Positions 7,559-55,057 of a DNA stretch of 64,000 nucleotides are shown here, piece by piece. Positions within the stretch are counted from its first letter, which is position 1. Every line of letters begins with the position of its first letter. The DNA is taken from positions 23,722,251-23,786,250 of the forward strand of contig NC_133941.1 in the NCBI RefSeq assembly GCF_031877795.1, written 5' to 3'. Source of the stretch: Strix aluco. Taxonomy: Eukaryota > Chordata > Aves > Strigiformes > Strigidae. The notes below the pieces were generated by a model, which searched no databases, was not told the origin of the DNA, and saw nothing but the letters and a program-made list of their open reading frames with translations. A program made the position numbers and the translations under genes.

Positions 7559-8010
7559 TGTGAAGAATATGGTGGTGATTCGTGTTAAAATACGATGACT
7601 TTGTTAAGAGTTTACCATGTACATAAGTTAAAGGAGATTGGTCCTAGTTTTATGGTTAAAAGGGGTTTGGAGGTTTTTTTCCTCAGTGACAGATGCTAAG
7701 CAGGTGGAAAATTGCTGGCGGGACCCCTGTCAGAAGACCCCAGCAACACCGGATTGCGCAGGTGAAATATGATTGGAGGAATCCCTGCCAGGAGCCCCGG
7801 CAACACCAGAAAGCCCGGGAAAGTTTGAGGGACCCCGCTGCGCATGTGAAGATGGGACTATGAAAGAGAGTGACGCAGCACCACCCGGTGCTCGTCGGTG
7901 TGGAGCGGGAAGCCCCCCGTGCCCCCCGGCGTGTCAGATTTTTTTTACTTGTTCTTATTGCAAATAAATTTATAAAAGATATTTTCGGCTCTGCCTCGGC
8001 ATTTATAACA
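7559..8010 (+). mobile_element. Solo LTR of the provirus family (L1, 452 bp), unit 1
   Basis: It begins TGTGAAGAAT and ends TATAACA, and is essentially identical to both LTRs of the provirus at 33,770-41,714 (I saw one difference from the 5' LTR). Poly(A) signal AATAAA is at 7,963-7,968. The flanks match those of the provirus, so this is the same insertion reduced to one LTR by recombination. The target duplication is not clean: GACCC on the left, CACAC followed by a C-run on the right. Confidence 0.9.
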
Positions 8011-8954
8011 CACACAAACCCCCCCCCCCCCCTTCACGTGTTCTCCATCCCCAGGTTCCTCCGCGAGGCTCCCCAAGCTCCCACGTCCCCTCCCCGCCAC
8101 CGGACAGGCTGCACCCACTTCCATCGTATCCCGCCGGACGCCTGAGTCCCTTGGGGGGGGCAGGTGGTCCCCGAGTCCCCTCGCAGGCACCTGCTATTGG
8201 CTGTGCGTGCTGGCTCAGGCCTCGAGGCCCAAGAAGAATTGAGGGGGGGCCCGGACACACCCTCCCCCCCCAACAATAAAAGGCTCCGATGAATTTCCAC
8301 TTGAGCCAGCAGAACACGATGATCCCGTTCACGTGTTTCTTCTTGCGGGGTTGTCTCTGTCTCCCCGTGCCCGCTGTCCCCGCGGTGTCCCCCCCATCCC
8401 ACGGCCACCCTGGGGGTCACGGGGCTGCCATTGGCCGCTGCCCCCTGCGGTGCCACTGCTGGGACCTGCAAGGACACTCGTGTCCCCTGGGGGGGGTGGG
8501 TGCGTGTGGCATTGGGAGGGGGTAACGCTGGGGGGGGGGTGACGGTCCCCACCCGCGGGCTGACAGAGGCGTCTGCAAAGCGGGCTGGGGGGGGCGCAGA
8601 CACACTGTCTGGCACCCGCGGGGCGGCGTGGCCTGCGCGTAGCACTGCCCTTCCTACACCAGCACTCGGGGAGAAAGCGACAGCACCAATAGCTCAGAGA
8701 CACAAAAACCCGTCCTCGTCCTCCCTTCCACGGGCCGGCAGAGCCAGTGCCACAGACGGGGCTCAGTCACCGCTTTTTAGACCCATCTGTCTTTGAAAAC
8801 GGCATCTCCTCTTTGAATTCTCCCACCGGCTCCCCATTTCACTGCGTCCCCCTCGAGCCCCTCATTCACACGCTCCCCAATGTTTTTTTTACAAAGCCCC
8901 ATCTGCCTTCTGGTCTGCTCTTCAGTCTCACAATGCCATTTCAGTAACTCCTCC
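8011..8954 (+). other. Poly-C tract and non-coding spacer, unit 1
   Basis: It opens with a run of about 14 C (12 in unit 3) and continues GC-rich with several G-runs near 8,490-8,600. From about 8,660 it is an inverted, diverged homologue of the T2 stretch 23,470-23,740. No gene was recognised. Confidence 0.6.
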
Positions 8955-9645
8955 TGATACCGTAAAAGTCGGTCAGAGAAGAACTCTCTAAAACTCCGAA
9001 GTCAGAGTGTTAGAAAGCAGGCATTCTTTATTTCAGTGCTGGGTGCATGGGGGATCTCTCCACCAAACATGCACACCTTAAGCCAGTGAAACCCCGACTT
9101 AAATGCAGGTATCTCATACATATCCACGGGGTCTTACAATACAAACATACATATTCATAATGATGTGTAAATAGTCCTAGAATTTTCTGTATTAACAGTG
9201 TCTTCCGTCTTGTCTGAGACGTGATGTGTATCCTTGAGATTGATGTCATCCGCTTACCAACATTGTCATGCTTTCCTCCATCTTATCGAAACGTGATCTG
9301 ATGCGCATCCTTGAGCGGTGCCATCTTCCTTGGTTCTCGGTTTGATGTGTGATGCATATCCTTGAATGGGGAGTCATCCTTTGGGTTGCGAATCACAGGT
9401 GCCCCTCGTCTGCAGGGGGGGCTGCAGATGTCCTCCATCTCCGGGTATGCAGATGTCCTCCATCTCCAGGTGTCAGAGGCCCCAGTCCTTTGTCCTTGTT
9501 TTACAATTCAGAAATGCCTTGCTTTTACAGCTCAGAGATGCCTTGCTTTTACAGCTTAAAGGAATTTTAGTTTAAAGTACAATTTAAATTTACTATAGCT
9601 AACTATTTTGCAGTTATGCTTCACTTTCTTAATATACCTATACCA
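8955..9645 (-). mobile_element. Solo LTR in reverse orientation, 691 bp (L3), unit 1
   Basis: Flanked by CTCC on both sides (8,951-8,954 and 9,646-9,649), with TGATACC at one end and ATACCA at the other, giving TG...CA termini on the minus strand. A minus-strand AATAAA lies at 9,027-9,032. The unoccupied site exists in the window: the T2 tail at 23,420-23,435 and 47,471-47,486 joins the two flanks directly. A 4-bp duplication fits a class I (gamma-like) element. No internal part remains. Confidence 0.85.
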
Positions 9646-9944
9646 CTCCCGTTCCACCAGCAAAGCCATCGCCCACTGCGTCCCACACAGACGCGGGTCT
9701 TCAGCATTCGGGCGCGAAAACCACTTCCTGAGCTAAGGCACAAATCAGAGTTCCCTCCCTCCCTCCCATAGAACATCTCCTCGGTGAGTGCCCCAACTCT
9801 GAGCTGTTAATAAAGCCCGCCTAGAGATACCCACAGGCTGGTGAAGGTCTTTAACACCACCATGCTGCAAAAGTAGCAGCAGCTTACAAGGCAAGAAAAA
9901 AAAACCCACAACATTTCTAAACAAATTCCACCTAGTTCATAAGA
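9646..9944 (+). other. Spacer between reverse LTR and T1 tail
   Basis: Its first part is an inverted homologue of 23,290-23,420. It contains AATAAA at about 9,811 and a short A-run near 9,896. Part of it (from TTTAACACCACC at 9,851) was re-used in the patchwork junction at 49,653-49,813. No gene seen. Confidence 0.5.
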
Positions 9945-10206
9945 AATCTGAAGCAGCCGGGAAGGTACAAGCGACTCCTTTGGGACGATCCTAACAGACT
10001 AACACCATCCCTGGACGTTTGACAGAAGACCAGAGAGCTGCATCTTGATTCCCATAGTAGGCTGTGAATTTGCAGATCGTCAGGAGAGGCTTAGGATACA
10101 CGAGATAAAACGGCTTAGCAGGAAGAGAGCAAGACCATGTTTTGATCCTTACTGCGAGTCTAACATAGCCCTGGCCTAACTGGCTCTTTGTCTTTTGTTC
10201 ACCTAG

Positions 10207-17200: not shown

Positions 17201-17652
17201 TGTGAAGAATATGGTGGTGATTCGTGTTAAAATACGATGACTTTGTTAAGAGTTTACCATGTACATAAGTTAAAGGAGATTGGTCCTAGTTTTATGGTTA
17301 AAAGGGGTTTGGAGGTTTTTTTCCTCAGTGACAGATGCTAAGCAGGTGGAAAATTGCTGGCGGGACCCCTGTCAGAAGACCCCAGCAACACCGGATTGCG
17401 CAGGTGAAATATGATTGGAGGAATCCCTGCCAGGAGCCCCGGCAACACCAGAAAGCCCGGGAAAGTTTGAGGGACCCCGCTGCGCATGTGAAGATGGGAC
17501 TATGAAAGAGAGTGACGCAGCACCACCCGGTGCTCGTCGGTGTGGAGCGGGAAGCCCCCCGTGCCCCCCGGCGTGTCAGATTTTTTTTACTTGTTCTTAT
17601 TGCAAATAAATTTATAAAAGATATTTTCGGCTCTGCCTCGGCATTTATAACA
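17201..17652 (+). mobile_element. Solo LTR L1, unit 2
   Basis: Same insertion site and same 452-bp LTR as unit 1; internal retroviral sequence absent. Confidence 0.9.
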
Positions 17653-20083: not shown

Positions 20084-20873
20084 GTAAGTGGCCTTGCTGG
20101 GAGGCCCGTAAGAGCTGGTGGAAAAAGCTGCCACCTCATTACTCTTTCATCTTCACCCAAAGGGATCTTGTGTTGGAACAGTTCCCCGCTCTCCAAGTAG
20201 GTGCCTTATTCTTGGAGAGAAAGACACGCAGACATCACCTGGAGACGCTCGTGTCCCCGTCAGCGCCATCAAGCCTCTACTCTGCTCCCGCCCGGCTGAT
20301 CCGCAGGGGATCCCACTTCCCACAAGTGCTGCCGTCTCTCACGTGACTCCACTGATGCGCTGACCCTGGCAAAGCCGCAGCCCAGCTTTATTCCCAGCTC
20401 CCCCGGTGAAAGGCCTCGCGACATACCGGAGGCCCTTCCATTCTCCGTGCGTGAGGAGCAAGTAGGCTACATGTCGCCCGAAAAAAACACGCAGAGCCCA
20501 ACACTTTACAGCGTTTCTTTCTCGTGCTTGCCCAGATCCCCCTGGATGGCGTCCCGTCCCTCAGGCGTGTCAACGACACCACTCGGCTTGGTGTCATCTT
20601 AAATCGCTTAGCGCAGGTGACTACGCTGGAAAGACCGCAGCAAGTTTGAAGTCACGCTGTAGATAACGCCTTGGGTAAGTTCAGGCTGTTTAACGCCCGA
20701 GCGTTGCTGTGAACGGAACGTGTCACACGTGACAACAGGAGCCACGCCGGTAAGTAACTGCTCTGGTGAACCCCCCCGGCAGCTGGGGATGCTGATACCT
20801 GCTCGGAGAACCAAGGAAGAGGAAGCGCTGTTCCCTAAATACTGTTTAAATAAGTTAAAGAAACAGCATTGCT

Positions 20874-21204
20874 TGTCGGGGAAGGCAGCTGGGCTGCCGA
20901 TAACCTGATTGAAGAAGAGTTTGACCTTGACAAGCTTCCGGTGTACCCTTGAGATAAGGAAGCTATGCTTAAAGCAAATAACTTTCAAGGAGCTGCTGAC
21001 TACATAGCAGGATGAAGCAAGCAGGGAGGAAACTGATCAAGGTTATCCAATGAGAATGTTAAAAACAACTTTTTGACCAATTCTGTTGTAACACTCTGGC
21101 ACCTGAAATATATAAAAATGCATGCTTTTAGTAATAAAAAAAACTAGCCGCTTGTTCAGCCATGTGAGTGTGTGTGTGTCGCTTTGTCTGTCTCTACAGC
21201 AACA
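20874..21204 (+). mobile_element. Solo LTR, 331 bp (L4), unit 2
   Basis: Starts TGTCGGGG, ends GCAACA, flanked by TTGCT on both sides (20,869-20,873 and 21,205-21,209). TATA box TATATAAAAA is at 21,108-21,117 and AATAAA at 21,133-21,138, followed by a GT-rich stretch, so promoter and poly(A) signals point along plus. The T1 tail at about 11,225-11,260 is a diverged empty site, aligning across the gap. Small size and 5-bp duplication; the family is not named. Confidence 0.85.
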
Positions 21205-21308
21205 TTGCTTTGGAAAGGACAGCTTCATTCGCTCCAAGCTTCTGTCATGGATGACGTTTGGCGCATTTTTATGCTTAGGCGTCGCCCTGTGGGATTTCCA
21301 GGTCTGTT

Positions 21309-22900
21309 TTTGTCGGAAGCCATTTCGAAGGGAGTTTGGGAGGGAGGGCGGTCACCCGTCTGTCATCCGCCACCTCTCGCGCCCACTGGGTGTGGGGCCG
21401 CACGGCACCGCCCCCTCGCGGGACTCTCTCTCCTCACCGGAGAGCGGGAAAATGGTGTCCGCCCCCTCGGGCATTTCTGCCGAGGCGCCGCCGGGCGCTG
21501 TGGTAAAATGGCGGCGTGGAGCGGGCTGCTCGCTCTCTCGCTCGCAAACGGTGGGAGCGTGGCTCCAGGCTCCGGACACCGGCTGGAAAGCGGCGTCCGC
21601 CCCTCGCGGCCGCACAGCCGCCCCAGCGCCCCTGTGAGAGCTGGAGCCAGCGCCACCTCGAAAGTTGCTCCTGTTGTCTTCGCAGCCGGGTGAGAGAAAC
21701 CTGTGGCTCGCTGTCGATGCTCTGTTGCGAACTGTGTATTTTTGACGGGGTTTGTCTGTGCTTGTCTCTCTCTGCCTCTGCGCTTGGGTTTTATGCCGCT
21801 CCCCTTCGGGAGCGATCTGACTCGGAAGCGTTAGGTCAGCGTGGCGTCACTACTCGATCAGAATCCCTTTTCTGTTGCGTGGTAGGAGTTGCCCCCCGCC
21901 CCCCCCCGGCACCCGGCGCAGGAGCTGGGGCTTCTAAGATGGCGGCGGCCGGCTCCTCCTTTTGGCGCCTCTGGCGGCACACCGCGGCTGCCGTGACGGC
22001 CGCAGCCTGGCCGGGTGCAGAGCAGCGCGCAGCCGCGCCCTCGTGGCGGGAAGAGGGAGGCGGGAGCGCTGGTGTAGAGACAAGGCCCTCAGGCAGCGGC
22101 ACTGGCCTGGCTCGAGTCCGTCCGTCCCGTCCCGTCCCGTCTCGTCCCCCCGCTTGACGAGCGACCACTTCCTCTGATCCCCTTGAAATGGTACCGGCGG
22201 GTTGTTTTGGTTGCCCCATCCCCATCGTCTGGTCACGAACGGCGGTTTGTTGAGGTTTATGATCGGTGTGAAGCCGCCTTGGTATACCTCTGTAAGGCGG
22301 GTTGACTTTTTTGCTGTTTGGGGGGTGCCCGTCAAAGTCTGTGGGAGGAGGAGAGGCGGTGGTTCGGCTCGTTAGCGTGTCTGCAGTGTGGGAGTCCTCG
22401 GGACTGACGGGGCTCGGGGAGGGGAATGGCGTGTGTCCGTCCCGGCCGCGCCCCGCCGTGGGTTTCCCGCGAGCTACCGGCAGCTCGCCGCCCGCCAGGC
22501 GGGCGATGGCGGGGCCCGCGCACGGCGCCGGAGCCCCGTTGCCTGCCGCGGCGGGAGCCGGAGCCGCGCCGGGAGCCGGCTGGAGTAGGCGCCGGGCGGA
22601 AGGGGCCACCCGTCCATCATCCCGTTCCTGTCGCGGCCGTTGGGTGTGGGGCCGCGCGGCACCGCCTGCCCGCGGGGCTCTCTCTCCTCGCTGGAGAGCG
22701 GGAAAATGGCGTCGGCCCCCTCCGGCATTTGTGTGGAGGCTTGTGTGTTCAAGCGCAGCGGCCAGATGGCGGCCCCGGCTGCGGGCCGGCCGCTGCGGCG
22801 CGGCGCTCGGCGGGGCTGAGCGGGCCGGGGCCGCTGCCCTGTAGTCCCGCGCCGCGGGGGTGCCTCTCGGCGGCCGTGCCGGTGGCGGGCAGGGGCCCGC
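21309..22900 (+). promoter_or_regulatory. T2 CpG-island promoter with internal duplication, unit 2
   Basis: CpG-dense for about 1.6 kb with three ATGGCGGC-type YY1-like motifs (near 21,508, 21,939 and 22,766). The segment 21,345-21,520 recurs in diverged form at 22,605-22,770, both with GGTGTGGGGCCGC, CGGGAAAATGG and a Cys-coding GGCATTT stretch. Two candidate start codons follow: one at about 21,508 giving MAAWSGLLALSL, one at about 21,939 giving MAAAGSSFWRLW. Either could be a leader or targeting peptide. The island may fire in both directions. Confidence 0.5.
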
Positions 22901-24422
22901 GGGCTGGCGTCCCCTCGTCCGGAAGGGGCTGCGCGGCCCGGCGCGGGTGGCCTTGCGTTGCCAGGCCGGGGAGTGTGTCGTGCAGGCCGCGGTCGCTCGG
23001 GTGTTGGTGGGCAGTCTTGGTGCCAGCGGTGGCTCGGGCTTCCAGGACGGCCACTAGCCCTGGTTCTCGTTAGCACCGTGACCGGGCTTAGGGGCTTTGG
23101 ATCCCCTCCGGCCCATCGCCACTGCCCTTCTGGCCGCTTGCGTGTTGATTCGCATCAGCTGCTCAGACTGGAGATTAGTCCTTACCCGGAAAACTTGACC
23201 TGCAGGAAGGATAACGTCTTGTGTTTTTCCTGCATTGTACTGTGGTGTCCGTGTCGATAGGGTCACGCACGCCTACGCTAGCGCGCTCAAACCGAGATGT
23301 TCTATGGGAGGGAGGGAGGGAAGTGTGATTTTGTGCCTTAGCTCGGGAAGTGCTTTTCGCGCCTGAATGCTGAAGGCCCGCGTCTGTGTGGGACGCAGTG
23401 GGCAATGGCTTTGCTGGTGGAACGGGAGGAGTTACTGAAATGGCATTGTGAGACTGAAGAGCAGACCAGAAGGCAGATGGGGTTTTGTAAAAAAAAAAAA
23501 AAAAATGTGGGAGCGTGTGAATGAGGGGGTCATGGGGGGTGCAGTGAAATGGGGAGCCGGTGGGAGAATTCGAAGAGGAGATGCAGTTTTCAAAGACAAA
23601 GGGGCAGTATGCGTCCACAGTGGGTCTAAAGAGCGGTGACTGATCCCTGTCTGTGGCACTGGGTCTGCCGGCCCTAGAATGAAGGAAGGGTTTTTTGTGT
23701 CTTTGAGCTATTCGTGGTGTTGCTTTCTCTCCTGAGTGCTGGTGTAGGAATGGCAGTAGAGTGTTTGAACTCCTTGAGGCGTGAGAGCTTGGACCTCTTG
23801 GAGGATTGATTTCAGTGGGACTGCTTGCGCGCTGACCTCTAGCCATGCTTCTGTGGCTTCTGCAGGTAACTTCGTGAGTGGATTATTGGGGAATGGAGCG
23901 TTCAGTATGAACGAGGGAAGGAAACTCTGGTCCTTTTTAGTCACAGGTTGGCGTATGAATGCCCAGAGATGCCACCTTACCGCTGTAGTTTGCTTTGGCA
24001 CCGACGTAATTCTTGCTAGCACACACGCAGCATTTACTAGAAGTCGTAGTTATGAAGTGTTCTTTTTCAGAGTCCTGTGCAGAAGGGTGGTGAGAGGTGT
24101 GTGTCAATTCAAGTACCCGTCTCTAGTCACGTACAGGTTGCGCTGCCTGTGGTGAGGGTTGCTGGAGGGCTGGATTTGCCGGAGGAGCAGGGTGCTGTCA
24201 TGAGGGCAGGCAGTCGCAGCTGTCAGATCAGCGAGGAGGGATACAGAAGCGTTTTTCAAAAAGGAAGCATTCCGTGGACAAGACGTGTCTTTCCAAAGCG
24301 GGAGACGCTTGCTGAGCGTCGGTGTTGTTTTGGGCCTGCGCTTTGGCCAGAGGCACGCTGGTGCGTTGGTGGCCATTGCTCGTTACACCCGTAACTGGGA
24401 AGTGGCTTTGGTTTTGGCTTAG
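22901..24422 (+). other. T2 intron-like stretch, unit 2
   Basis: Mixed composition with an A-run of about 17 at 23,489-23,505. The part 23,280-23,740 is an inverted homologue of 8,660-8,954 plus 9,646-9,800 and lacks the L3 LTR, giving its empty site at about 23,424-23,431. A possible short exon follows the acceptor TTCTTTTTCAG at 24,070. Nothing firmer was found. Confidence 0.4.
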
Positions 24423-25420: not shown

Positions 25421-25585
25421 TTTTCTCATGGACTCCTATTCGGAGCAATTGTCCTTAAGGTCCTCTTGTTGTCGACAGTTCCCCGACATCTTCATCTGTT
25501 CCTGTCCCGGAGCCTGAGAGCAGTCCCACAGGTAAGTCAGTGGGAGGAGGGAGCATCTACCTTTTCGTCGTCTTTCCGTGTGCAG

Positions 25586-27713: not shown

Positions 27714-27718
27714 TGGGC

Positions 27719-38231: not shown

Positions 38232-39316
38232 TAGATGGGAAATGGATTCTTCCAGACAAGAGGGAAATACTACCTAAAGGATATACTAGAAGAATAATAA
38301 ATAGATTACACCAAAGCACTCATTGGGGCACTAAGGCTTTAAGTGATCATTTCCTAAGGCATTTTGGTTGTATTGGAATGTATGAAATTGCGAAACAAGC
38401 TACTTATGGTTGTTTAACATGTCAAAAAATTAACAAAAGAACTATGAGACAGGCCGCAGCTGGTGGAAGGAAAACAGCTTATCGACCTTTTGAAAGGATC
38501 CAAGTAGATTTTACAGAACTACCAAAAGTTGGGAGGTACAGATACTTACTGGTAATGGTGGATCAGTTAACTCACTGGGTAGAGGCATTTCCTACCACCA
38601 GAGCGACTGCTCAATCAGTAGCTAAAATATTGCTAGAACAAATTATACCACGATTTGGAATTATAAAAGTATTTGATTCGGATCAGGGTACTCATTTTAC
38701 ATCTAAAATTATAAAATTAATTACAGAAGCCCTAGGCATTACTTGGGAATATCACACTCCATGGCATCCACAAAGTTCTGGACGGGTAGAGCGAATGAAT
38801 CGGACCTTGAAACAACAGTTATCTAAATTAATGATAGAAACCAAACTCTCATGGATTAAATGCCTACCCTTAGCCCTACTTCATATTAGGACTATGCCAA
38901 ACTCGGAGACAGGCCTCTCGCCTTTTGAAATGTTATATGGAATGCCATATTCCCACGGTATGCCTCTGGGGCATCCACTGATAGAAGACGTAACGATTCA
39001 ACAATACATTAAAACTATTGAGAAAAATCTAAAAGAATTAAGAATGAAGGGAATATTGGCCCAGACGACTCCTTTAGGGTTTGCAGTGCATAAAATACAA
39101 CCTGGAGATAAAGTAATGATTAAAACCTGGAAGGAGGAAGGCTTATCTCGTAGGTGGGAAGGACCATTCCTGGTATTGACTGCGGAGACAGCTGTAAGAA
39201 CTGCTGAAAGAGGATGGACTCGTATTTCCAGGATGAAAGGACCAGTCACAGGTGAATCAAATTGGAAGATCGAGTCAACGCCTGGAGATTTGAAGCTCCG
39301 AATGCAACGGAGTTAA
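38228..39316 (+). CDS. pol: pol part 3: integrase, uninterrupted open frame
   Basis: 362 codons, without a stop. The N-terminal zinc-binding motif is complete (H28, H32, C62, C65). The catalytic triad is Asp94, Asp152 and Glu188, with the usual 35-residue spacing between the last two. The C-terminal domain carries WEGPFLVL, the GPY/F motif of gammaretroviral and some other integrases. Cut off from the rest of pol by a frameshift, it has no start signal of its own. It is the best-kept part of the provirus. Confidence 0.92.
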   Translation: MIDGKWILPDKREILPKGYTRRIINRLHQSTHWGTKALSDHFLRHFGCIGMYEIAKQATYGCLTCQKINKRTMRQAAAGGRKTAYRPFERIQVDFTELPKVGRYRYLLVMVDQLTHWVEAFPTTRATAQSVAKILLEQIIPRFGIIKVFDSDQGTHFTSKIIKLITEALGITWEYHTPWHPQSSGRVERMNRTLKQQLSKLMIETKLSWIKCLPLALLHIRTMPNSETGLSPFEMLYGMPYSHGMPLGHPLIEDVTIQQYIKTIEKNLKELRMKGILAQTTPLGFAVHKIQPGDKVMIKTWKEEGLSRRWEGPFLVLTAETAVRTAERGWTRISRMKGPVTGESNWKIESTPGDLKLRMQRS

Positions 39317-39624
39317 AATAGGACTGGACTTACCGAGGCAGACAGAGCGACATCAACAGTAGTAAAGATCTTGAATCATCCACATGAACCCTGTGTGTAT
39401 GTATATATGTTAAAAGGTTGTAACATTCACAGGGTTTTTTTTGGTTTTAGACTGTTTTGCATGAAAACATAAGTCAGTTTGTGTAGTTGGACAAAGAAAC
39501 CGAAAGAAAAGGGAAGTAAGAGAGTGAGGGAAAAGCTGAGAGTAAGTCCAAGTGAGGGCAAGACCGGGTTGGCCTCCATTTTTGCTGTTAAGACGACACA
39601 AACCCGACCGTTGGCAGCAACCCA
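39317..39624 (+). other. pol-env spacer with env splice acceptor
   Basis: A strong acceptor, TTTTTTTTGGTTTTAG, ends at 39,450, placed as expected for spliced env mRNA. Confidence 0.6.
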
Positions 39625-40494
39625 ATGGGTCCAGGGATAAACAGAAAAATGTGCCACACCGGACCTCACGATGGCGACTGGCTTTTTCTCCTCATTTTGT
39701 GTGTTGGCCTCGTGATGGCTAAAAAGGGTCAAAACACTACCAGCTTATCTGACCCCTTTGAAGAGAACGAGTTTGTTCTGTTAGCAAAAACTATAAGTAA
39801 AACTCTCAATTTAAGTCATTGCTGGGTTTGTGGGGGACCTTTGGGATTGTCAAGTTGGCCGTGGGTTTCTGTGCCGCTTTCCCCATCACAAATTGTAAGT
39901 AACTATAGTGATGTTAATAATACTACCTGGGAAGATAGTGAAAAATGGCCAGTTCAATTTCCTAACAAGGGTAAATTTTGTCTGAACCGAACTCAGACAG
40001 GAGGAGTTGATGTGGGAGAGAGTAAGTGTCGATGGACACTTACACATAAATTAATTAACAAAGATAGAGGTATCTATATATGGTTGTGGCTTAGTGAACA
40101 AGGACGCAGCAAAGGATTCAAGGGGTTCTGGGCAGACAAAAATGAAACTGAATATGCCAAACTACGAGGAAACAGTTTTTATAATTGAACTTGCGAATGG
40201 AAAAATGACACTGGGTCCTGGTATTGTACTATACGGATAAATAATAATTTAAAGGAAGTTTTTAGCCCTTTGGGTGACAAAAATACGACTTATTTTCAAA
40301 CCCCAAGGACTGCAGAGGGACCGTTTGCCAAAGGTACAAAGGCCAAAAAAGGCCACTATTGGATATGCGGACATACTGCCTACAAACAATTGCCAACGAA
40401 CTGGTCAGGAATTTGTTATATAGGGATTATCCGACCTCTATTTTTCCTTCTTCCAGAGGCGGATGGCCCCCAATTAGGAATAAAACTTATATGA
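39625..40494 (+). pseudogene. env: env surface subunit (SU)
   Basis: Starts with a signal peptide (hydrophobic WLFLLILCVGLVMA). CWVC at residues 66-69 is the CXXC type of gammaretrovirus-like SU. Several N-glycosylation sites follow (NTT, NLS, NYS, NTT, NRT, NET). TGA at 40,186-40,188 interrupts the frame, probably a former Trp codon. The same frame then continues with WICGH, LPTNW and GICYIG to a stop at 40,492-40,494. Confidence 0.9.
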
Positions 40495-40502
40495 TAAATT
40501 AG

Positions 40503-41066
40503 GAAATAAAGAGTATTACCCGTCGTGAGCGATCCATTGATTTCAGAATAGGTGGAACACAAAAGTGGGGGGAAAATGAGTGGCCTCCTGAGAGAATAAT
40601 TAAACACTATGGACCTGCCTCCTGGAACCCTAATGAACCAGTATCAGGGGCAAGAGAACCAATTTATAATTTAAATCGTATAATTAGACTGCAAGCAGTT
40701 TTAGAAATCATTACGAATAAAACTGCTAATGCCATAGATCTTTTGGCTCAACAGATGCGCACTGCGACCCTCCAGCATCGCATGGTCCTGGACTACCTGC
40801 TCGCTGAAGAGGGAGGGGTATGTGGAAAATTAAATGTCTCCAATTGTTGCCTAGAAATAGATGATGTAGGAGAAGTGGTCCTTCAATTGACCACAGATAT
40901 CAGAAAACTGGCTCATGTCCCTGTCCAAACATGGAGTGGCTGGAATGGCGATCTATGGTCCTGGTTACCTGGAGCCCCGTGGGTAAAACAGCTTTTATTT
41001 TACTTGTTGTGTGCATTTGCTGCCCTAATGTTTATACCATGTATGATACCATCCATGTTTTATTAG
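40503..41066 (+). pseudogene. env: env transmembrane subunit (TM)
   Basis: In another frame from SU. A furin-like RRER (40,521-40,532) could be the SU/TM boundary. A heptad-like helix region ([20 protein letters not shown]) leads to [12 protein letters not shown]. The disulfide motif is CX7CC (40,821-40,850), one residue longer than the usual CX6CC, with an NVS glycosylation site inside the loop. A membrane anchor ([15 protein letters not shown]) precedes the stop at 41,064-41,066. No obvious long hydrophobic fusion peptide follows the RRER. Confidence 0.88.
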
Positions 41067-41292
41067 ATTGATTCATTCATTTGTTCAAGGGATGCAAATC
41101 TCTGCGATACCAATGGATCCTGAATTAGCCAAAGGAGGAAAGATACACCCACTAATGATAGTTAAAATAAAGAAAACAGAACACCCAAATCCCATACAAC
41201 AGACCCTAGCACGTTTTGAAACCCAAACACGAATCAATTTAATAAAACAAAAGGCGAGGGATTGTGAAGAATATGGTGGTGATTCGTGTTAA
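41060..41292 (+). pseudogene. env: env cytoplasmic tail, frame-shifted
   Basis: Just after the TM stop, the next frame stays open for about 75 codons into the 3' LTR. It reads a polar tail (ELAKGGKIHPLMIVKIKKT), which fits a former cytoplasmic tail separated by an indel near 41,060. Confidence 0.5.
41247..41261 (+). promoter_or_regulatory. Polypurine tract
   Basis: Purine-rich AACAAAAGGCGAGGGA lies just before the 3' LTR, where plus-strand DNA synthesis would start. Confidence 0.65.
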
Positions 41293-41714
41293 AATACGAT
41301 GACTTTGTTGAGAGTTTACCATGTGCATAAGTTAAAGGAGATTGGTCCTAGTTTTATGGTTAAAAGGGGTTTGGAGGTTTTTTTCCTCAGTGACAGATGC
41401 TAAGCAGGTGGAAAATTGCTGGCGGGACCCCTGTCAGAAGACCCCAGCAACACCGGATTGCGCAGGTGAAATATGATTGGAGGAATCCCTGCCAGGAGCC
41501 CCGGCAACACCAGAAAGCCCGGGAAAGTTTGAGGGACCCCGCTGCGCATGTGAAGATGGGACTATGCAAGAGAGTGACGCAGCACCACCCGGTGCTCGTC
41601 GGTGCGGAGCGGGAAGCCCCCCGTGCCCCCCGGCGTGTCAGATTTTTTTTACTTGTTCTTATTGCAAATAAATTTATAAAAGATATTTTCGGCTCTGCCT
41701 CGGCATTTATAACA
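41263..41714 (+). repeat. 3' LTR of the provirus
   Basis: 452 bp. Differs from the 5' LTR at three places I found: TTGAGAG/TTAAGAG, GTGCATA/GTACATA, TATGCAAG/TATGAAAG. The flank after it is CACC plus a C-run, about six bases shorter than in the solo-LTR units. Confidence 0.95.
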
Positions 41715-42650
41715 CACCCCCCCCCCCCTTCACGTGTTCTCCATCCCCAGGTTCCTCCGCGAGGCTCCCCAAGCCCCCACGTCCCCTCCCCGCCACCGGA
41801 CAGGCTGCACCCACTTCCATCGTATCCCGCCGGACGCCTGAGTCCCTTGGGGGGGGCAGGTGGTCCCCGAGCCCCCTCGCAGGCACCTGCTACTGGCTGT
41901 GCGTGCTGGCTCAGGCCTCGAGGCCCAAGAAGAATTGAGGGGGGGCCCGGACACACCCTCCCCCCCCAACAATAAAAGGCTCCGATGAATTTCCACTTGA
42001 GCCAGCAGAACACGATGATCCCGTTCACGTGTTTCTTCTTGCGGGGTTGTCTCTGTCTCCCCGTGCCCGCTGTCCCCACGGTGTCCCCCCCATCCCACGG
42101 CCACCCTGGGGGTCACGGGGCTGCCATTGGCCGCTGCCCCCTGCGGTGCCACTGCTGGGACCTGCAAGGACACTCGTGTCCCCTGGGGGGGGTGGGTGCG
42201 TGTGGCATTGGGAGGGGGTAACGCTGGGGGGGGGGTGACGGTCCCCACCCGCGGGCTGACAGAGGCGTCTGCAAAGCGGGCTGGGGGGGGCGCAGACACA
42301 CTGTCTGGCATCCGCGGGGCGGCGTGGCCTGCGCGTAGCACTGCCCTTCCTACACCAGCACTCGGGGAGAAAGCGACAGCACCAATAGCTCAGAGACACA
42401 AAAACCCGTCCTCGTCCTCCCTTCCACGGGCCGGCAGAGCCAGTGCCACAGACGGGGCTCAGTCACCGCTTTTTAGACCCATCTGTCTTTGAAAACGGCG
42501 TCTCCTCTTTGAATTCTCCCACCGGCTCCCCATTTCACTGCGTCCCCCTCGAGCCCCTCATTCACACGCTCCCCAATGTTTTTTTTACAAAGCCCCATCT
42601 GCCTTCTGGTCTGCTCTTCAGTCTCACAATGCCATTTCAGTAACTCCTCC
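41715..42650 (+). other. Poly-C tract and non-coding spacer, unit 3
   Basis: Copy of 8,011-8,954 (offset 33,696); no gene recognised. Confidence 0.6.
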
Positions 42651-43341
42651 TGATACCGTAAAAGTCGGTCAGAGAAGAACTCTCTAAAACTCCGAAGTCA
42701 GAGTGTTAGAAAGCAGGCATTCTTTATTTCAGCGCTGGGTGCATGGGGGATCTCTCCACCAAACATGCACACCTTAAGCCAGTGAAACCCCGACTTAAAT
42801 GCAGGTATCTCATACATATCCACGAGGTCTTACAATACAAACATACATATTCATAATGATGTGTAAATAGTCCTAGAATTTTCTGTATTAACAGTGTCTT
42901 CCGTCTTGTCTGAGACGTGATGTGTATCCTTGAGATTGATGTCATCCGCTTACCAACATTGTCATGCTTTCCTCCATCTTATCGAAACGTGATCTGATGC
43001 GCATCCTTGAGCGGTGCCATCTTCCTTGGTTCTCGGTTTGATGTGTGATGCATATCCTTGAATGGGGAGTCATCCTTTGGGTTGCGAATCACAGGTGCCC
43101 CTCGTCTGCAGGGGGGGCTGCAGATGTCCTCCATCTCCGGGTATGCAGATGTCCTCCATCTCCAGGTGTCAGAGGCCCCAGTCCTTTGTCCTTGTTTTAC
43201 AATTCAGAAATGCCTTGCTTTTACAGCTCAGAGATGCCTTGCTTTTACAGCTTAAAGGAATTTTAGTTTAAAGTACAATTTAAGTTTACTATAGCTAACT
43301 ATTTTACAGTTATGCTTCACTTTCTTAATATACCTATATCA
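42651..43341 (-). mobile_element. Reverse solo LTR L3, unit 3
   Basis: Copy of 8,955-9,645 with CTCC on both sides. Confidence 0.85.
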
Positions 43342-43901
43342 CTCCCGTTCCACCAGCAAAGCCATCGCCCACTGCGTCCCACACAGACGCGGGCCTTCAG
43401 CATTCGGGCGCGAAAACCACTTCCTGAGCAAAGGCACAAATCAGAGTTCCCTCCCTCCCTCCCTCCCATAGAACATCTCCTCGGTGAGTGCCCCAACTCT
43501 GAGCTGTTAATAAAGCCCGCCTAGAGATACCCACAGGCTGGTGAAGGTCTTTAACACCACCATGCTGCAAAAGTAGCAGCAGCTTACAAGGCAAGAAAAA
43601 ACCCAACATTTCTAAACAAATTCCACCTAGTTCATAAGAAATCTGAAGCAGCCGGGAAGGTACAAGCGACTCCTTTGGGATGATCCTAACAGACTAACAC
43701 CATCCCTGGACGTTTGACAGAAGACCAGAGAGCTGCATCTTGATTCCCATAGTAGGCTGTGAATTTGCAGATTTTCAGGAGAGGCTTAGGATACACGAGA
43801 TAAAACGGCTTAGCAGGAACAGAGCAAGACCATATTTTAATCCTTACTGCGAGTCTAACATAGCCCTGGCCTAACTGGCTCTTTGTCTTTTGTTCGCCTA
43901 G

Positions 43902-44141
43902 GTACAACACGAGTTTTGAGTGCCAAAGCTTTTCCCACGTCTTCCACGTCTGTTAACGTTCACGAAGTAGATGCAGAAACGTGCTACGATCTATTACGGG
44001 CTGTGGGCTTGCAAATTCGAACCGCTGTTCTCTGCAAAGAACACGCGGTACAGGCACTCTGCCATCCCCAGTACTCCCAGTAACACACGTGCAGAGCACA
44101 AACATTCCCGTAGAAGACCTTGCGCCCAGTGTCCTCACTAG
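43902..44141 (+). CDS. Candidate exon of unknown gene, unit 3
   Basis: Copy of 10,207-10,446. The acceptor reads GTTCGCCTAG and the donor CACTAG|GTAAGT. Same early stop. Confidence 0.28.
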
Positions 44142-44930
44142 GTAAGTGGCCTTGCTGGAGGCCCGTAAGAGCTGGTGGAAAAAGCTGCCACCTCACTACT
44201 CTTTCATCTTCACCCAAAGGGATCTTGTGTTGGAACAGTTCCCCGCTCTCCAAGTAGGTGCCTTATTCTTGGAGGGAAAGACACGCAGACATCACCTGGA
44301 GACGCTCGTGTCCCGCTCAGCGCCGTCAAGCCTCTACTCTGCTCCCGCCCGGCTGATCCGCAGGGGATCCCACTTCCCACAAGTGCTGCCGTCTCTCACG
44401 TGACTCCACTGATGCGCTGACCCTGGCAAAGCCGCAGCCCAGCTTTATTCCCAGCTCCCCCGGTGAAAGGCCTCGCGACATACCGGTAGCCCTTCCATTC
44501 TCCGTGCGTGAGGAGCAAGTAGGTTACATGTCGCCCGAAAAAAACACGCAGAGCCCAACACTTTACAGCGTTTCTTTCTCGTGCTTGCCCAGATCCCCCT
44601 GGATGGCGTCCCGTCCCTCAGGCGTGTCAACGACACCACTCGGCTTGGTCTCATCTTAAATCGCTTAGCGCAGGTGACTACGCTGGAAAGACCGCAGCAA
44701 GTTTGAAGTCGCGCTGTAGATAACGCCTTGGATAAGTTCAGGCTGTTTAACGCCCGAGCGTTGCTGTGAACGGAACGTGTCACACGTGACAACAGGAGCC
44801 ACGCCGGTAAGTAACTGCTCTGGTGAACCCCCCCGGCAGCTGGGGATGCTGATACCTGCTCGGAGAACCAAGGAAGAGGAAGCGCTGTTCCCTAAATACT
44901 GTTTAAATAAGTTAAAGAAACAGCATTGCT

Positions 44931-45261
44931 TGTCGGGGAAGGCAGCTGGGCTGCCGATAACCTGATTGAAGAAGAGTTTGACCTTGACAAGCTTCCGGTG
45001 TACCCTTGAGATAAGGAAGCTATGCTTAAAGCAAATAACTTTCAAGGAGCTGCTGACTACATAGCAGGATGAAGCAAGCAGGGAGGAAACTGATCAAGGT
45101 TATCCAATGAGAATGTTAAAAACAACTTTTTGACCAATTCTGTTGTAACACTCTGGCACCTGAAATATATAAAAATGCATGCTTTTAGTAATAAAAAAAA
45201 CTAGCCGCTTGTTCAGCCATGTGAGTGTGTGTGTGTCGCTTTGTCTGTCTCTACAGCAACA
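44931..45261 (+). mobile_element. Solo LTR L4, unit 3
   Basis: Copy of 20,874-21,204 with TTGCT on both sides (44,926-44,930 and 45,262-45,266). Confidence 0.85.
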
Positions 45262-45365
45262 TTGCTTTGGAAAGGACAGCTTCATTCGCTCCAAGCTTCT
45301 GTCATGGATGACGTTTGGCGCATTTTTATGCTTAGGCGTCGCCCTGTGGGATTTCCAGGTCTGTT

Positions 45366-46951
45366 TTTGTCGGAAGCCATTTCGAAGGGAGTTTGGGAGG
45401 GAGGGCGGTCACCCGTCTGTCATCCGCCACCTCTCGCGCCCACTGGGTGTGGGGCCGCACGGCACCGCCCCCCCGCGGGACTCTCTCTCCTCACCGGAGA
45501 GTGGGAAAATGGTGTCCGCCCCCTCGGGCATTTCTGCCGAGGCGCCGCTGGGCGCTGCGGTAAAATGGCGGCGTGGAGCGGGCTGCTCGCTCTCTCGCTC
45601 GCAAACGGTGGGAGCGTGGCTCCAGGCTCCGGACACCGGCTGGAAAGCGGCGTCCGCCCCTCGCGGCCGCACAGCCGCCCCAGCGCCCCTGTGAGAGCTG
45701 GAGCCAGCGCCACCTCGAAAGTTGCTCCTGTTGTCTTCGCAGCCGGGTGAGAGAAACCTGTGGCTCGCTGTCGATGCTCTGTTGCGAACTGCGTATTTTT
45801 GGAGGGGTTTGTCTGTGCTTGTCTCTCTCTGCCTCTGCGCTTGGGTTTTACGCCGCTCCCCTTCGGGAGCGATCTGACTCGGAAGCGTTAGGTCAGCGTG
45901 GCGTCACTACTCGATCAGAATCCCTTTTCTGGTGCGTGGTAGGAGTTGCCCCCCCGCCCCCCCGGCACCCGGCGCAGGAGCTGGGGCTTCTAAGATGGCG
46001 GCGGCCGGCTCCTCCTTTTGGCGCCTCTGGCGGCACACCGCGGCTGCCGTGACGGCCGCAGCCTGGCCGGGTGCAGAGCAGCGCGCAGCCGCGCCCTCGT
46101 GGCGGGAAGAGGGAGGCGGGAGCGCTGGTGTAGAGACAAGGCCCTCAGGCAGCGGCACTGGCCTGGCTCGAGTCCGTCCGTCCCGTCCCGTCCCGTCTCG
46201 TCCCCCCGCTTGACGAGCGACCACTTCCTCTGATCCCCTTGAAATGGTACCGGCGGGTTGTTTTGGTTGCCCCATCCCCATCGTCTGGTCACGAACGGCG
46301 GTTTGTTGAGGTTTATGATCGGTGTGAAGCCGCCTTGGTATACCTCCGTAAGGCGGGTTGACTTTTTTGCTGTTTGGGGGGTGCCCGTCAAAGTCTGTGG
46401 GAGGAGGAGAGGCGGTGGTTCGGCTCGTTAGCGTGTCTGCAGTGTGGGAGTCCTCGGGACTGACGGGGCTCGGGGAGGGGAATGGCGTGTGTCCGTCCCG
46501 GCCGCGCCCCGCCGTGGGTTTCCCGCGAGCTACCGGCAGCTCGCCGCCCGCCAGGCGGGCGATGGCGGGGCCCGCGCACGGCGCCGGAGCCCCGTTGCCT
46601 GCCGCGGCGGGAGCCGGAGCCGCACCGGGAGCTGGCTGGAGTAGGCGCCGGGCGGAAGGGGCCACCCGTCCATCATCCCGTTCCTGTCGCGGCCGTTGGG
46701 TGTGGGGCCGCGCGGCACCGCCTGCCCGCGGGACTCTCTGTCCTCGCTGGAGAGCGGGAAAATGGCGTCGGCCCCCTCCGGCATTTGTGTGGAGGCTTGT
46801 GTGTTCAAGCGCAGCGGCCAAATGGCGGCCCCGGCTGCGGGCCGGCCGCTGCGGCGCTCGGCGGGGCTGAGCGGGCCGGGGCCGCTGCCCTGTAGTCCCG
46901 CGCCGCGGGGGTGCCTCTCGGCGGCCGTGCCGGTGGCGGGCAGGGGCCCGC
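45366..46951 (+). promoter_or_regulatory. T2 CpG-island promoter, unit 3
   Basis: Copy of 21,309-22,900, again with the duplicated promoter core (45,402-45,577 and 46,661-46,826). Confidence 0.5.
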
Positions 46952-48475
46952 GGGCTGGCGTCCCCTCGTCCGGAAGGGGCTGCGCGGCCCGGCGCGGGTG
47001 GCCTTGCGTTGCCAGGCCGGGGAGTGTGTCGTGCAGGCCGCGGTCGCTCGGGTGTTGGTGGGCAGTCTTGGTGCCAGCGGTGGCTCGGGCTTCCAGGACG
47101 GCCACTAGCCCTGGTTCTCGTTAGCACCGTGACCGGGCTTAGGGGCTTTGGATCCCCTCCGGCCCATCGCCACTGCCCTTCTGGCCGCTTGCGTGTTGAT
47201 TCGCATCAGCTGCTCAGACTGGAGATTAGTCCTTACCCGGAAAACTTGACCTGCAGGAAGGATAACGTCTTGTGTTTTTCCTGCATTGTACTGTGGTGTC
47301 CGTGTCGGTACGGTGATGCCCGCCTACGCTAGCGCGCTCAAACCGAGATGTTCTATGGGAGGGAGGGAGGGAAGTGTGATTTTGTGCCTTAGCTCGGGAA
47401 GTGCTTTTCGCGCCCGAATGCTGAAGGCCCGCGTCTGTGTGGGACGCAGTGGACGATGGCTTTGCTGGTGGAACGGGAGGAGTTACTGAAATGGCATTGT
47501 GAGACTGAAGAGCAGACCAGAAGGCAGATGGGGTTTTGTAAAAAAAAAAATAAATAAAATGTGGGAGCGTGTGAATGATGGGCTCGAGGGAGGTGCAGTG
47601 AAATGGGGAGCTGGTAGGAGAATTCGAAGAGGAGATGCAGTTTTCAAAGACAAAGGGGCAGTATGCGTCCACAGTGGGTCTAAAGAGCGGTGAGTGATCC
47701 CCGTCTGTGGCACGGGGTCTGCCGGCCCTAGAATGAAGGAAGGGTTTTTTGTGTCTTTGAGCTATTCGTGGTGTTGCTTTCTCTCCTGAGTGCTGGTGTA
47801 GGAATGGCAGTAGAATGTTTGAACTCCTTGAGGCGTGAGAGCTTGGACCTCTCGGAGGATTGATTTCAGTGGGACTGCTCGCGCGCTGACCTCTAGCCAT
47901 GCTTCTGTGGCTTCTGCAGGTAACTTCGTGAGTGGATTATTGGGGAATGGAGCGTTCAGTATGAACGAGGGAAGGAAACTCTGGTCCTTTTGAGTCAGAG
48001 GTTGGCGTATGAATACCCAGAGATGCCGCCTTACCGCTGTAGTTTGCTTTGGCACCGACGTAATTCTTGCTAGCACACACGCAGCATTTACTAGAAGTCG
48101 TAGTTATGAAGTGTTCTTTTTCAGAGTCCTGTGCAGAAGGGGGTGAGAGGTGTGTGTCAATTCAAGTACCCGTCTCTAGTCACGTACAGGTTGTGCTGCC
48201 TGTGGTGAGGGTTGCTGGGGGGCTGGATTTGCCGGAGGAGCAGGGTGCTGTCATGAGGGCAGGCAGTCGCAGCTGTCAGATCAGCGAGGAGGGATACAGA
48301 AGCGTTTTTCAAAGAGGAAGCATTCCGTGGACGAGACGTGTCTTTCCAAAGTGGGAGACGCTTGCTGAGCGTCGGTGTTGTTTTGGGCCTGTGCTTTGGC
48401 CAGAGGCACGCTGGTTCGTTGGTGGCCGTTGCTCGTTACACCCGTAACTGGGAAGTGGCTTTGGTTTTGGCTTAG
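46952..48475 (+). other. T2 intron-like stretch, unit 3
   Basis: Copy of 22,901-24,422. The L3 empty site is at about 47,475-47,482, and the A-run is interrupted (AAATAAATAAAA near 47,545). Confidence 0.4.
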
Positions 48476-49584
48476 AGAAGAGACCGCTTCCACGGTATGT
48501 CCAGTCAGGCACCGGAGAGTTGTTGACGTGAGAGATTTTTCTTTGGAAAGTGAACTGCTTTATCGCTTTTTGGCCAAGGTAAGTCTTGCATTTTAAAAGA
48601 AGTGCCAGCGCAGCTGTTTTACTGCAGCGCACGGTGGCGGTGGTGGATTAGCGGGCCGTTCTCGGTAGCGCCGATTGTTTGAAAAGCAGATCAAGGGACG
48701 CGGAAAGTAGGTACGGAAGAAGGAAATTGAGCTGTATAAAGCGCTTGTTAGGATAAGTGCGTCAAGTGAAGTTCTCTGGCACAGGGGTGAGGTGGAAAGC
48801 CCGAGTTCTGACCCGAACTGGTAGGAGCAGTGAAGAGGCGGAAGGTTGCCGCTGGCTGCCGCGCATTTATTTCCTCGTGCCGTACTTGTTTGCACCGAGT
48901 GTCGAAGATCAGAAATGACGGGGAGGTGGCTCTGCGCAGCTGCCTTGCTAAGCGCTGCTTGGCTGCAGCAGCAAGGGATGGCGAGCCGTAAGGGTAGTAG
49001 CCACGTGAAGCTCAGGTTACCTTCGGAGCACAACAGTGGTGACAGTTGAACAGCACCTGAGCAGCACCTGGGGGCAGCACCTTGGCAGGCTCGAAGTGAG
49101 AAGCAAGAGGTCAGGGTGATGAAAGTCGTGGCTGGTCTCCCAGGTCTGTTCAGAAGGAACGGTGGAAATGTCAGTACGTGGGCCTTTACGAGTTATGCAA
49201 AATTAGGTGGTGGTCCAAAGAGTAAAGAGGAAAAAGCGTGAAGAGACCTGGCAGCGTTGGGACTGGAGGGAGTGTCTCGGCCTGGAGACTGTGGAAGCGC
49301 ACGGTGGCGTAGCACTGGAACTGGTGACGGCGGCATTCCTGTTTCCTGTTTGCTTCTGGATTGTCCGTTACCTCCTAAGGTGTGAGTGACAGCTGAAGCT
49401 CTTGTCACAACTGAGGCATTTGTATTTCTCCACCGTTTGAAAAGAAATGGTTGAACTTACGATGCACCTTCTTTTTTCACAGGGACTCCTGTTCCGAGCA
49501 ATTGTCCTTAAGGTCCTCTTGTTGTCGACGGTTTCCCGACATCTTCATCTGTTCCTGTCCCGGAGCCTGAGAGCAGTCCCACAG
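48476..49584 (+). CDS. Candidate T2 exon pair, unit 3
   Basis: First exon 48,476-48,578 ends GCCAAG|GTAAGT in phase 0. A good acceptor (CTTTTTTCACAG, 49,471-49,482) opens a second exon, 49,483-49,584 (102 nt, 34 codons, phase 0 to 0), ending CACAG|GTAAGT. Joined they read open, the second part being hydrophobic and basic (FRAIVLKVLLLSTV). This acceptor is lost in unit 2 and in the T2 fragment at 2,683. The downstream exon would end in a stop soon after the splice. The protein is unknown. Confidence 0.33.
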
Positions 49585-49652
49585 GTAAGTCAGTGGGAGG
49601 AGGGAGCATCTACCTTTTCGTCGTCTTTCCGTGTGCAGTGCAAGTTGCTCCT

Positions 49653-49813
49653 CTGTGCCTCAGCCAGGCTTTAACACCACCATGCTGCAAAAGTAGCAGC
49701 AGCTTACAAGGCAAGAAAAAAACCCTGAGCTGGGACCAACGCCACCACCCAATGCAGATGCTGGGAAGCCCAGTGCGCCCACCCTCCCCACTGTCCCCAC
49801 TGCACCCCCAACC
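49653..49813 (+). repeat. Patchwork junction from three templates
   Basis: Between two direct copies of an 83-bp segment (49,570-49,652 and 49,814-49,897) lie three pieces: reverse complement of about 5,110-5,135; then a plus copy of about 9,847-9,900; then reverse complement of a 4,195-4,290-like stretch. The joins share short identities (CTTTA, an A-run/CCC, CCT). Such order and strand changes are the mark of replication template switching. Confidence 0.8.
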
Positions 49814-53033: not shown

Positions 53034-53046
53034 GCCAGCGTGCCCC

Positions 53047-54487
53047 CACGGGGCTCTGTGACCTCACAGCCCTGCTCTGATGTCACGGCCCCACTGTGAC
53101 CTCACGGCCGGGCGAGGCTGCGTGGGGATGGCTCTCGGGGTGCTCGAGGAGAGCCGCCGGAGCGATGCCGGGGGAGCTGCCCCCCAGGGAGGGGAGCTCG
53201 TCCCCTCGGGCAGCTCTGTCCTGTTTTCCGGGCACTGTCACGGGGCGGCGAGGAGCTCACAGCCCCCCAGAGCAGCAGGACAGCACAGCCAAGGGCTGCC
53301 TGACCTCCTCGGGTGCCCCATCTGCAGAGCGGGCGGGCAGGGGGGGCAAGTGCCGGGCGTCAAACGGCCTCGGGGGGGTCCCAGGGCGAGGAGGGCCTAG
53401 TCCCGGGAGGGGTGGGGGGTGTCCCAGTCCCGGGGGAAGGGCCCCGGCCGGGGAATCCCGCGCCCGCCCCTGGCCCGGGCGACGCGGGCGCCAGACCCTG
53501 GCGGGGCGTGTCCTGGGTGACCGGGCGGGGCCCGCAGCGGCCGCTCCTGCGGTTGGACGGGGCGTCCGGGGGCGGTGGCGTGGCCTGCCCGTAGCCGGGG
53601 CCCCGGCGGGGTCGAGGTCTCGCAGAGGAGCGGCGCCGGGCCTCGTCGGGGGCGGGGCCAGCGCTGGCCGCTCCTGCGCTCTTCTGCCCCGCCCCGGCCC
53701 CGTTTTCCCGCGCCGGGGCAAAGAGGGGCTGGGAGACCCCGGCGGGGCGCGGGGCGTGACACCAGGTAGTAACGAAGCGGCTTTATTGCCGCGGGGCGGT
53801 GAGCACAGTGCCTGCCGGGGGGGGGACGACACCCACGCATTTGGGGGGCCCCCGGAGCTGGGCAGGGGGACTGTGCCTCCCCTGAGGTGACACGGGGGGG
53901 ATTGCGGGGAGCGGCGGGACACGGCGAGAAGACTGGGGGAGACCGGGAGAAACCTGGGGGGCCCCGAGGGGATGAAGCTGGAGCGGGGGACCCCCAGCAA
54001 GATTTTGGGGACCCCAAGGGGACCCAGCAGCACTGGAGGAAGATGGGGGCACCCCAGCAGGGACTCAGGGGGACCTCCAGGGACTTTGGGGACCCCAGGG
54101 GGACTCCAAGGGACAGTAGGGAGCCCGAAGGGGAACACGTGGGATCAGGGGGACGCTGGGTCCCAGCGGGGCAGCACATGGGGGACCCCAGGGGGGCCCC
54201 GCGACACATTGGGGACCCCGGGGTGACTGGTGGGGACCCCGAGAGGAATGGGCAGGACCAGGGAGACCACAGGGCACAGCAGGGTGACCCGGGGGAAGCC
54301 AGCAGGACACTCTGGGGGTGACCCAGGGGGATACTGGGAACCCCGGAGGTGCCAGAGAGCATTTGGGGGACCCTGGGCTGACCCGAGAGGACATGTGGGG
54401 GGATCCAGGGCTGACGCAGGGGGACACTGGGGATCACGGGGGCACAGGGGACAACGGGACAGGTTGGGGGGGCTTTGTTAGCCCTAA
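53047..54487. repeat. CpG-rich block and G-rich minisatellite, unit 4
   Basis: Copy of 6,000-7,440. Confidence 0.75.
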
Positions 54488-54605
54488 CGAGGCCGGGGGA
54501 GGGGCTTGAGGGGCATCCCTGTCACCGCTGCCACCCCCATCTCCCCCGCACGCACTGCATGGTGGCCCGCTTGGATGCCGTCCCCTGCCGCCTGGCTGCC
54601 GACCC

Positions 54606-55057
54606 TGTGAAGAATATGGTGGTGATTCGTGTTAAAATACGATGACTTTGTTAAGAGTTTACCATGTACATAAGTTAAAGGAGATTGGTCCTAGTTTTAT
54701 GGTTAAAAGGGGTTTGGAGGTTTTTTTCCTCAGTGACAGATGCTAAGCAGGTGGAAAATTGCTGGCGGGACCCCTGTCAGAAGACCCCAGCAACACCGGA
54801 TTGCGCAGGTGAAATATGATTGGAGGAATCCCTGCCAGGAGCCCCGGCAACACCAGAAAGCCCGGGAAAGTTTGAGGGACCCCGCTGCGCATGTGAAGAT
54901 GGGACTATGAAAGAGAGTGACGCAGCACCACCCGGTGCTCGTCGGTGTGGAGCGGGAAGCCCCCCGTGCCCCCCGGCGTGTCAGATTTTTTTTACTTGTT
55001 CTTATTGCAAATAAATTTATAAAAGATATTTTCGGCTCTGCCTCGGCATTTATAACA
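54606..55057 (+). mobile_element. Solo LTR L1, unit 4
   Basis: Same site and LTR as units 1 and 2; no proviral interior. Confidence 0.9.

Follow-up and report, generated by a model that had tools for sequence, protein, structure and literature searches.

The stretch analysed here (the window; 64,000 bp of Strix aluco DNA, C11:23722251-23786250, where C-numbers denote contigs of the single assembly covered) lies in an array of repeated units, usually about 9.64 kb long and carrying one predicted host gene each, which starts about 1.6 kb to the left of a retroviral long terminal repeat (LTR) and is read from the opposite strand. An earlier note on this DNA had described the same 452-bp LTR between the same flanks in four units, with a retroviral interior only in unit 3, and both coordinates and junctions confirm this description: all five LTRs in the window measure 452 bp, and the 7,041-bp interior occurs in unit 3 alone (Table 1). 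The array is wider than those four units, with 13 LTR-bearing sites presenting the same flanks on C11. Six inverted units (A-F) lie left of the window, and the other seven (U1-U7) are direct; twelve are in the solo state and only unit 3 is proviral. A genome search with the left flank, in which 25 of 25 candidates were scored, returned the same 13 sites and weaker relatives, and 40 of the 229 candidates from a search with the LTR were scored.

Identity between the flanks of the window units runs for kilobases, far above chance, and over the left 2.4 kb the solo units other than A and F present 0-3 differences. Older sequence is found at the end of the array, in U7, which departs from it about 2 kb to the right of its LTR and carries 160 private differences, and also within units 2, 3 and F: a long right tail is present in units 2 and 3, and a long, older left part in units 3 and F. 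With its near-identical units, its hybrids and the older sequence at its end, the locus is a concertedly evolving gene array. Unit A, whose LTR lies at C11:23665518-23665974 near the left end of the array, presents clustered substitutions and gaps in the LTR and in the left flank (in the latter, 19 tightly clustered substitutions and 64 gap columns), and these differences look like poor sequence. The sequence past unit A reads N, so further units may exist there; the window itself contains no N. Unit A, unit F (for the left-flank range) and the end of U7 were dropped from some counts. Right-flank counts end at about 3,185 bp, the limit of homology with the short units, and the sites beyond it (3 of 20 private sites and 20 of 48 unit 3 differences) were dropped.

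The provirus and its insertion site

The unit 3 provirus is bounded by paired LTRs with TG...CA ends. Eight reading-frame pieces of its interior were scanned, of which six matched the Gag, protease, reverse transcriptase, RNase H, integrase and Env families in retroviral order and two returned no family match. RVP, RVT_1, RNase_H and rve all exceed their cut-offs, as does TLV_coat (24.7 bits; cut-off 22.5). Gag_p30 (23.1; cut-off 27.4), which is accompanied by a zinc knuckle, and MLVIN_C (23.5; cut-off 29.2) fall below theirs. This domain content suggests a gammaretrovirus-like (class I) endogenous retrovirus (ERV). The coding pieces sit in several frames with stops between them, and the provirus is hence broken. 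The stretch following its 5' LTR resembles a tryptophan-tRNA primer site.

Compared with the window's solo LTRs, the 5' LTR of unit 3 is one base off, at LTR position 343, where it carries the commoner base of the family, and the 3' LTR is four bases off. At the three private positions of the 3' LTR, the relatives read A in 20 of 20 cases at two positions and in 17 of 20 at the third, and the 5' LTR presents no private change; on this comparison, all three differences between the proviral LTRs look derived in the 3' LTR.

The LTR is preceded by GCCGACCC at all 13 sites. The position of the right junction is likewise the same in every unit, with the 12 solo units reading CACACAAACCCC (one with an extra C) and unit 3 reading CACCCC. 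A 4-bp target-site duplication is not present at this locus, which has ACCC on the left and CACA or CACC on the right; elsewhere in the LTR family, such a duplication was observed at 9 of 10 solo-type loci among 20 fetched, representing 6 of 7 different insertions, and also at one probable LTR pair on C11. The earlier note had named differing flanks, or target-site duplications of independent origin, at the solo copies as evidence against a shared insertion. Neither was found: the solo junctions are identical and lack a duplication.

A genome search with the flanks matched both in an empty relative at C11:23490186-23491529, an unamplified locus about 174 kb from the nearest LTR, that of unit A, with 265 bases between the two matches. 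The relative has no LTR and reads GACCC, then 248 bases, then the right flank. Parts of these 248 bp recur elsewhere (148 bp at 82% in two places on C37 and 108 bp at 81% on C27), which indicates that they are old and were lost from the array, where the only match is one of 19 bp at a fixed place in the left flank. The target-site duplication is missing at the 13 units as a consequence of this loss. In all 13 units, the provirus-bearing unit 3 included, the LTR is accompanied by an identical 248-bp loss, a common scar that is stronger evidence than shared flanks alone and argues against repeated insertion. Together with the emptiness of the unamplified relative, it supports the earlier claim that the retrovirus inserted before amplification, and points to a single insertion predating the spread of the present units. 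Loss at integration fits the fact that the LTR stops at its own last base, and a precedent for aberrant integration in which host DNA is lost comes from human immunodeficiency virus with weakened integrase (PMC5041404).

Table 1. Features of the array in the window (window positions).
Feature	Positions	Strand	Remarks
Predicted host gene exons	4493..5911	-	Signal peptide and one hydrophobic segment; splice sites and segments read by eye
Solo LTR, unit 1	7559..8010	+	Same sequence in the solo LTRs of units 2 and 4
Right junction of the solo state	8011..8032	+	Target-site duplication absent; loss of 248 bp from the original site, at the same place in other units
Solo LTR, unit 2	17201..17652	+
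Long right tail, unit 2	20872..25605	+
Older, diverged upstream part of unit 3	25437..31552	+	Recurs in solo unit F
Unit 3 left flank adjoining the 5' LTR	31553..33769	+	0 differences from array majority over 2,217 bp
5' LTR, unit 3 provirus	33770..34221	+
Proviral interior	34222..41262	+	7,041 bp; gag, pol and env pieces in order but broken
3' LTR, unit 3	41263..41714	+	Three private changes (LTR positions 48, 63, 305)
Unit 3 right flank	41715..44928	+	28 differences from array majority in ~3,180 bp, 17 private
Long right tail, unit 3	44929..49657	+	In common with unit 2
Solo LTR, unit 4	54606..55057	+

Hybrid structure of unit 3 and order of states

Unit 3 is a hybrid, in which the left tract adjoining the 5' LTR is like the array majority and the right flank is diverged. 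The 204 bp beyond the clean left tract hold 13 differences from the majority, all of them present in unit F too. The tract boundary had been noticed before testing, and its significance was hence assessed by 20,000 shuffles of the 41 differences: none produced a clean run as long, and none confined all 13 left differences to the outer 204 bp. A test of changes private to unit 3 (0/2,666 on the left and 20/3,632 on the right, with hand-entered lengths; Fisher P 2.9e-5) was set aside because unit F copies the left half of unit 3, so that nothing there could be private. Measured against the empty relative, the left flank differs at 47 of 902 positions and the right flank at 22 of 922, indicating that the left flank is not generally slow.

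Unit F is inverted and lies mostly to the left of the window, the stretch matching unit 3 extending to window position 269. It is 99.6% identical to unit 3 over 8.8 kb, LTR included. Its left half presents no substitution relative to unit 3 over 3.5 kb until the last 286 columns, which contain one (LTR position 343), and this unit 3-type half continues into a solo LTR, followed by a right flank that matches that of U1 exactly. Unit 2 is the mirror image: sequence of solo type spans its LTR and the next 2.1 kb or so, after which a long tail of the unit 3 kind begins. The occurrence of the same left half on solo unit F and on proviral unit 3 indicates exchange between units in or near the LTR, in agreement with the earlier note, which had allowed for spread of the solo state by gene conversion.

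A site without the LTR is ancestral and a solo LTR cannot regrow its interior, and the states must therefore follow the order empty, provirus, solo. This polarity holds, and the formation of the solo state after both the insertion and the proviral state, as previously claimed, is supported. The solo units present a complete single LTR between the flanks of the provirus, the arrangement by which LTR-LTR recombination is recognised. A mosaic comparison for the solo crossover point gave no readable crossover, since all three differences of the 3' LTR are private. LTR position 343 is T in 11 of the 12 solo LTRs, whereas both proviral LTRs and 16 of 20 relatives have C there. Seventeen right-flank sites are private to unit 3; the empty relative matches the solo units at seven of them and unit 3 at three, the remainder comprising two third states and five unreadable sites. 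The three matches to unit 3 imply a derived base in all 12 solo units, and such shared derived bases fit a single solo ancestor. Empty, proviral and solo states are thus found within about 320 kb of one bird chromosome, where the order of events can be read without a second species.

A proposed history and its alternatives

We consider it probable, at roughly 0.8, that one insertion was followed by a later solo deletion and by spread of the solo form, with unit 3 carrying the provirus and a partly exchanged left side. In such a history, a gammaretrovirus-like element would have inserted once in the ancestor of the gene block, 248 bp of host DNA on its right probably being lost at integration, and would then have persisted as a provirus. 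Recombination between the two LTRs, most simply once, would have removed the interior to yield a solo-LTR unit of about 9.64 kb, and duplication and exchange would have brought this unit to 12 copies in two opposed arms. Unit 3 would have retained the provirus, with the 2.2 kb next to its 5' LTR, and probably that LTR too, replaced by or exchanged with solo-type sequence, presumably through gene conversion or crossing over, and with its 3' LTR and right flank keeping an older history. The single shared junction, the empty relative and the hybrid pattern are observed directly.

Several observations weigh against this history. A comparison of whole flanks shows no difference between the sides of unit 3 (13/2,421 versus 28/~3,180, Fisher P 0.16), and the evidence for exchange accordingly lies in the clean tract beside the 5' LTR and not in the side. 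U6 (C11:23796130-23796581) has 343C, its solo LTR being equal to the 5' LTR of unit 3, and could have arisen by a second solo formation or by a small conversion. In A, B and C, the inverted units farthest out, LTR position 348 is T, the more frequent base in the family (13 of 20), in contrast to the C of every other solo LTR and of the two proviral LTRs; we interpret this T as a later shared change, though one at odds with a simple single line. At 11 further right-flank sites the base of unit 3 is also present in F, U1, U7, B, U2, U5 or U6, and the empty relative agrees with it at eight of them (two are unreadable and one presents a third state). Some solo units have hence kept older bases, and the solo units cannot all have spread from one uniform copy without exchange. 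An unrooted tree of the right flank places unit 3 next to F and U1, with weak support (55). Furthermore, units 2 and 3 are only 98.4% identical over 8.4 kb. Next to the LTR, the difference between unit 3 and the solo units is smaller (0.88%), and the long form may accordingly have been duplicated before the insertion took place. A single solo origin followed by uneven homogenisation fits these data best.

Among the alternatives, unit 3 might have regained its provirus through a crossover, within or close to the LTR, between a solo unit with an F-like left half and an older unit that bore the provirus, a scenario that we regard as possible though doubtful and whose odds overlap with those of the history above, of which it is the crossing-over form. 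Such an event would leave a solo-like left flank by the LTR and an old 3' LTR and right flank in unit 3, and unit F indeed presents the same left half with a solo LTR; a conversion tract ending inside the provirus yields the same pattern, however, F may equally derive from unit 3, and the crossover point cannot be placed. Several independent LTR-LTR deletions after amplification of a provirus-bearing block appear unlikely. The deviation of U6 at LTR position 343 and of A, B and C at 348, and the older right-flank bases that several solo units keep in common with unit 3, speak for repeated deletion, as does the frequency of LTR-LTR deletion among ERVs described in PMC6298018. This explanation is weakened by the one right junction, unlike that of unit 3, in 12 of 12 solo units, by 343T in 11 of 12 and by the three derived right-flank bases common to all 12, though homogenisation could mimic such shared solo features.

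Recombination through the LTRs of two proviruses lying 248 bp apart would provide a different account of the missing duplication and the 248-bp loss, dispensing with aberrant integration. Family members elsewhere do carry 4-bp duplications, and the terminal CA is the exact end of the LTR, as expected under either route, but two independent insertions within 248 bp would be needed, which means more events, and the second is otherwise unsupported; we judge this merger improbable. It is more improbable still that the lone proviral unit reflects an assembly artefact or a mix of haplotypes. Assembly is difficult where inverted and direct repeats are nearly identical, and the N beyond unit A and the clustered differences within it point in that direction, but unit 3 is no copy of its neighbours, with 17 private right-flank and three private LTR substitutions, its flanks match the array junction, and the window is free of N. 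Returning to the history of one insertion, solo deletion and exchange, a tentative extension is that the 7-kb provirus might act as a barrier to homogenisation, with tracts entering from the left stopping at the interior and old bases on the right being sheltered. The idea, which we hold to be doubtful, derives from the single case of unit 3, where old bases persist behind the provirus while the 2.2 kb before it match the rest of the array. If it were true, the solo form would have spread because only the solo form pairs along its whole length.

The earlier note had expected the array to provide a clock as well as a polarity; the polarity stands, and the clock is weak because the LTR pair depends on the recent history of the array. 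Between the 3' LTR and the solo LTRs of the window, 4 of 452 positions differ (0.88%), the same proportion as between the right flank and the array majority (28 of ~3,180, 0.88%). With the Ural owl values given in PMC12455985 (4.6e-9, read as a per-generation rate, and a generation time of 3 years), the LTR pair (3/452) would correspond to 2.2 (0.45-6.3) million years, while 2.9 (1.9-4.2) million years would follow from the right flank (28/~3,180). The LTR pair was rejected as an insertion date: the 5' LTR and the 2.2 kb to its left share very recent ancestry with the solo units, so the pair is no independent timer. About 2-4 million years is at most a rough age for the separation of the right side of unit 3 from the solo units, and only a minimum for the insertion. 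The locus hence carries a warning on LTR-pair dating in homogenised arrays, where one LTR may share the recent history of the array and the other may not.

Comparable systems, host gene and other features

In the primate RNU2 array, ape units contain a solo LTR and baboon units a provirus, so that the states differ between species, whereas the owl array holds both. RNU2, which encodes the U2 small nuclear RNA, is described as a tandem array under concerted evolution (PMC4132748), and the owl locus resembles it in both respects. In the primate amylase cluster, as presented in a preprint (PMC12363942), a single ERV insertion adjoins the gene, the segment of gene and ERV was duplicated, and part of the ERV was deleted in AMY2A; the AMY1B element is listed as full length in a review of HERV-E (PMC4379568). 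The owl locus is similar in its insertion by a gene, joint duplication and later loss in a descendant. It differs in that the proviral copies (AMY1) were those amplified further in the amylase cluster, whereas here the solo unit was amplified and one hybrid-flanked proviral unit is found. The pericentromeric proviruses HERV-K111 and K222 are reported to have been copied together with their flanking DNA, through recombination or gene conversion, and to include solo LTRs as well as hybrids formed by flank exchange (PMC4425911). The owl array presents the same three features, but those elements occupy many chromosomes with satellite flanks and the owl case is one local gene array. Human dimorphic loci, as outlined in PMC6298018, likewise show one site in two states through LTR recombination; there the states are alleles of one locus, whereas in the owl they occur in paralogous units on a single chromosome. 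For HML-2, the use of LTRs to recognise proviruses that were duplicated or have recombined is standard, by the account in PMC3228705. The owl array is a further case of a known kind. Literature searches on solo LTRs and endogenous retroviruses of owls, and on solo-LTR tandem arrays, returned nothing on this locus as judged by titles and the opening of abstracts.

The predicted host protein is matched by a Strix aluco record, pieces of which were found in the units. Its relatives comprise 30 bird-type matches, of which one, in Athene, is named PRRC2C and the others are unnamed or uncharacterized, and a Pfam search with ten host open reading frames gave one weak match, below its cut-off. Rfam and tRNA scans of the window found nothing. 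An inverted partial copy of the predicted small membrane protein gene lies at 11748-12499. Short TGACCTCACGG-type repeats, which resemble cAMP-response elements, occur at window positions 6012-6062 and in four further copies, just before the predicted gene start in the window's five units. The older left part of unit 3 also contains an 85-bp unit repeated about twice at window positions 27416-27580.

Outside the array, seven LTRs of the same family are spaced 31.8-33.6 kb apart at C21:6254050-6453974, and a primer-site-like stretch follows both of the two that were fetched. This series may be a second array, each unit having a proviral 5' end; its 3' LTR was not found in three 2-kb pieces. In addition, the LTRs at C6:44976187, C10:4036804 and C16:21697289 present the same 16 bases on either side, and are probably one insertion copied by segmental duplication.

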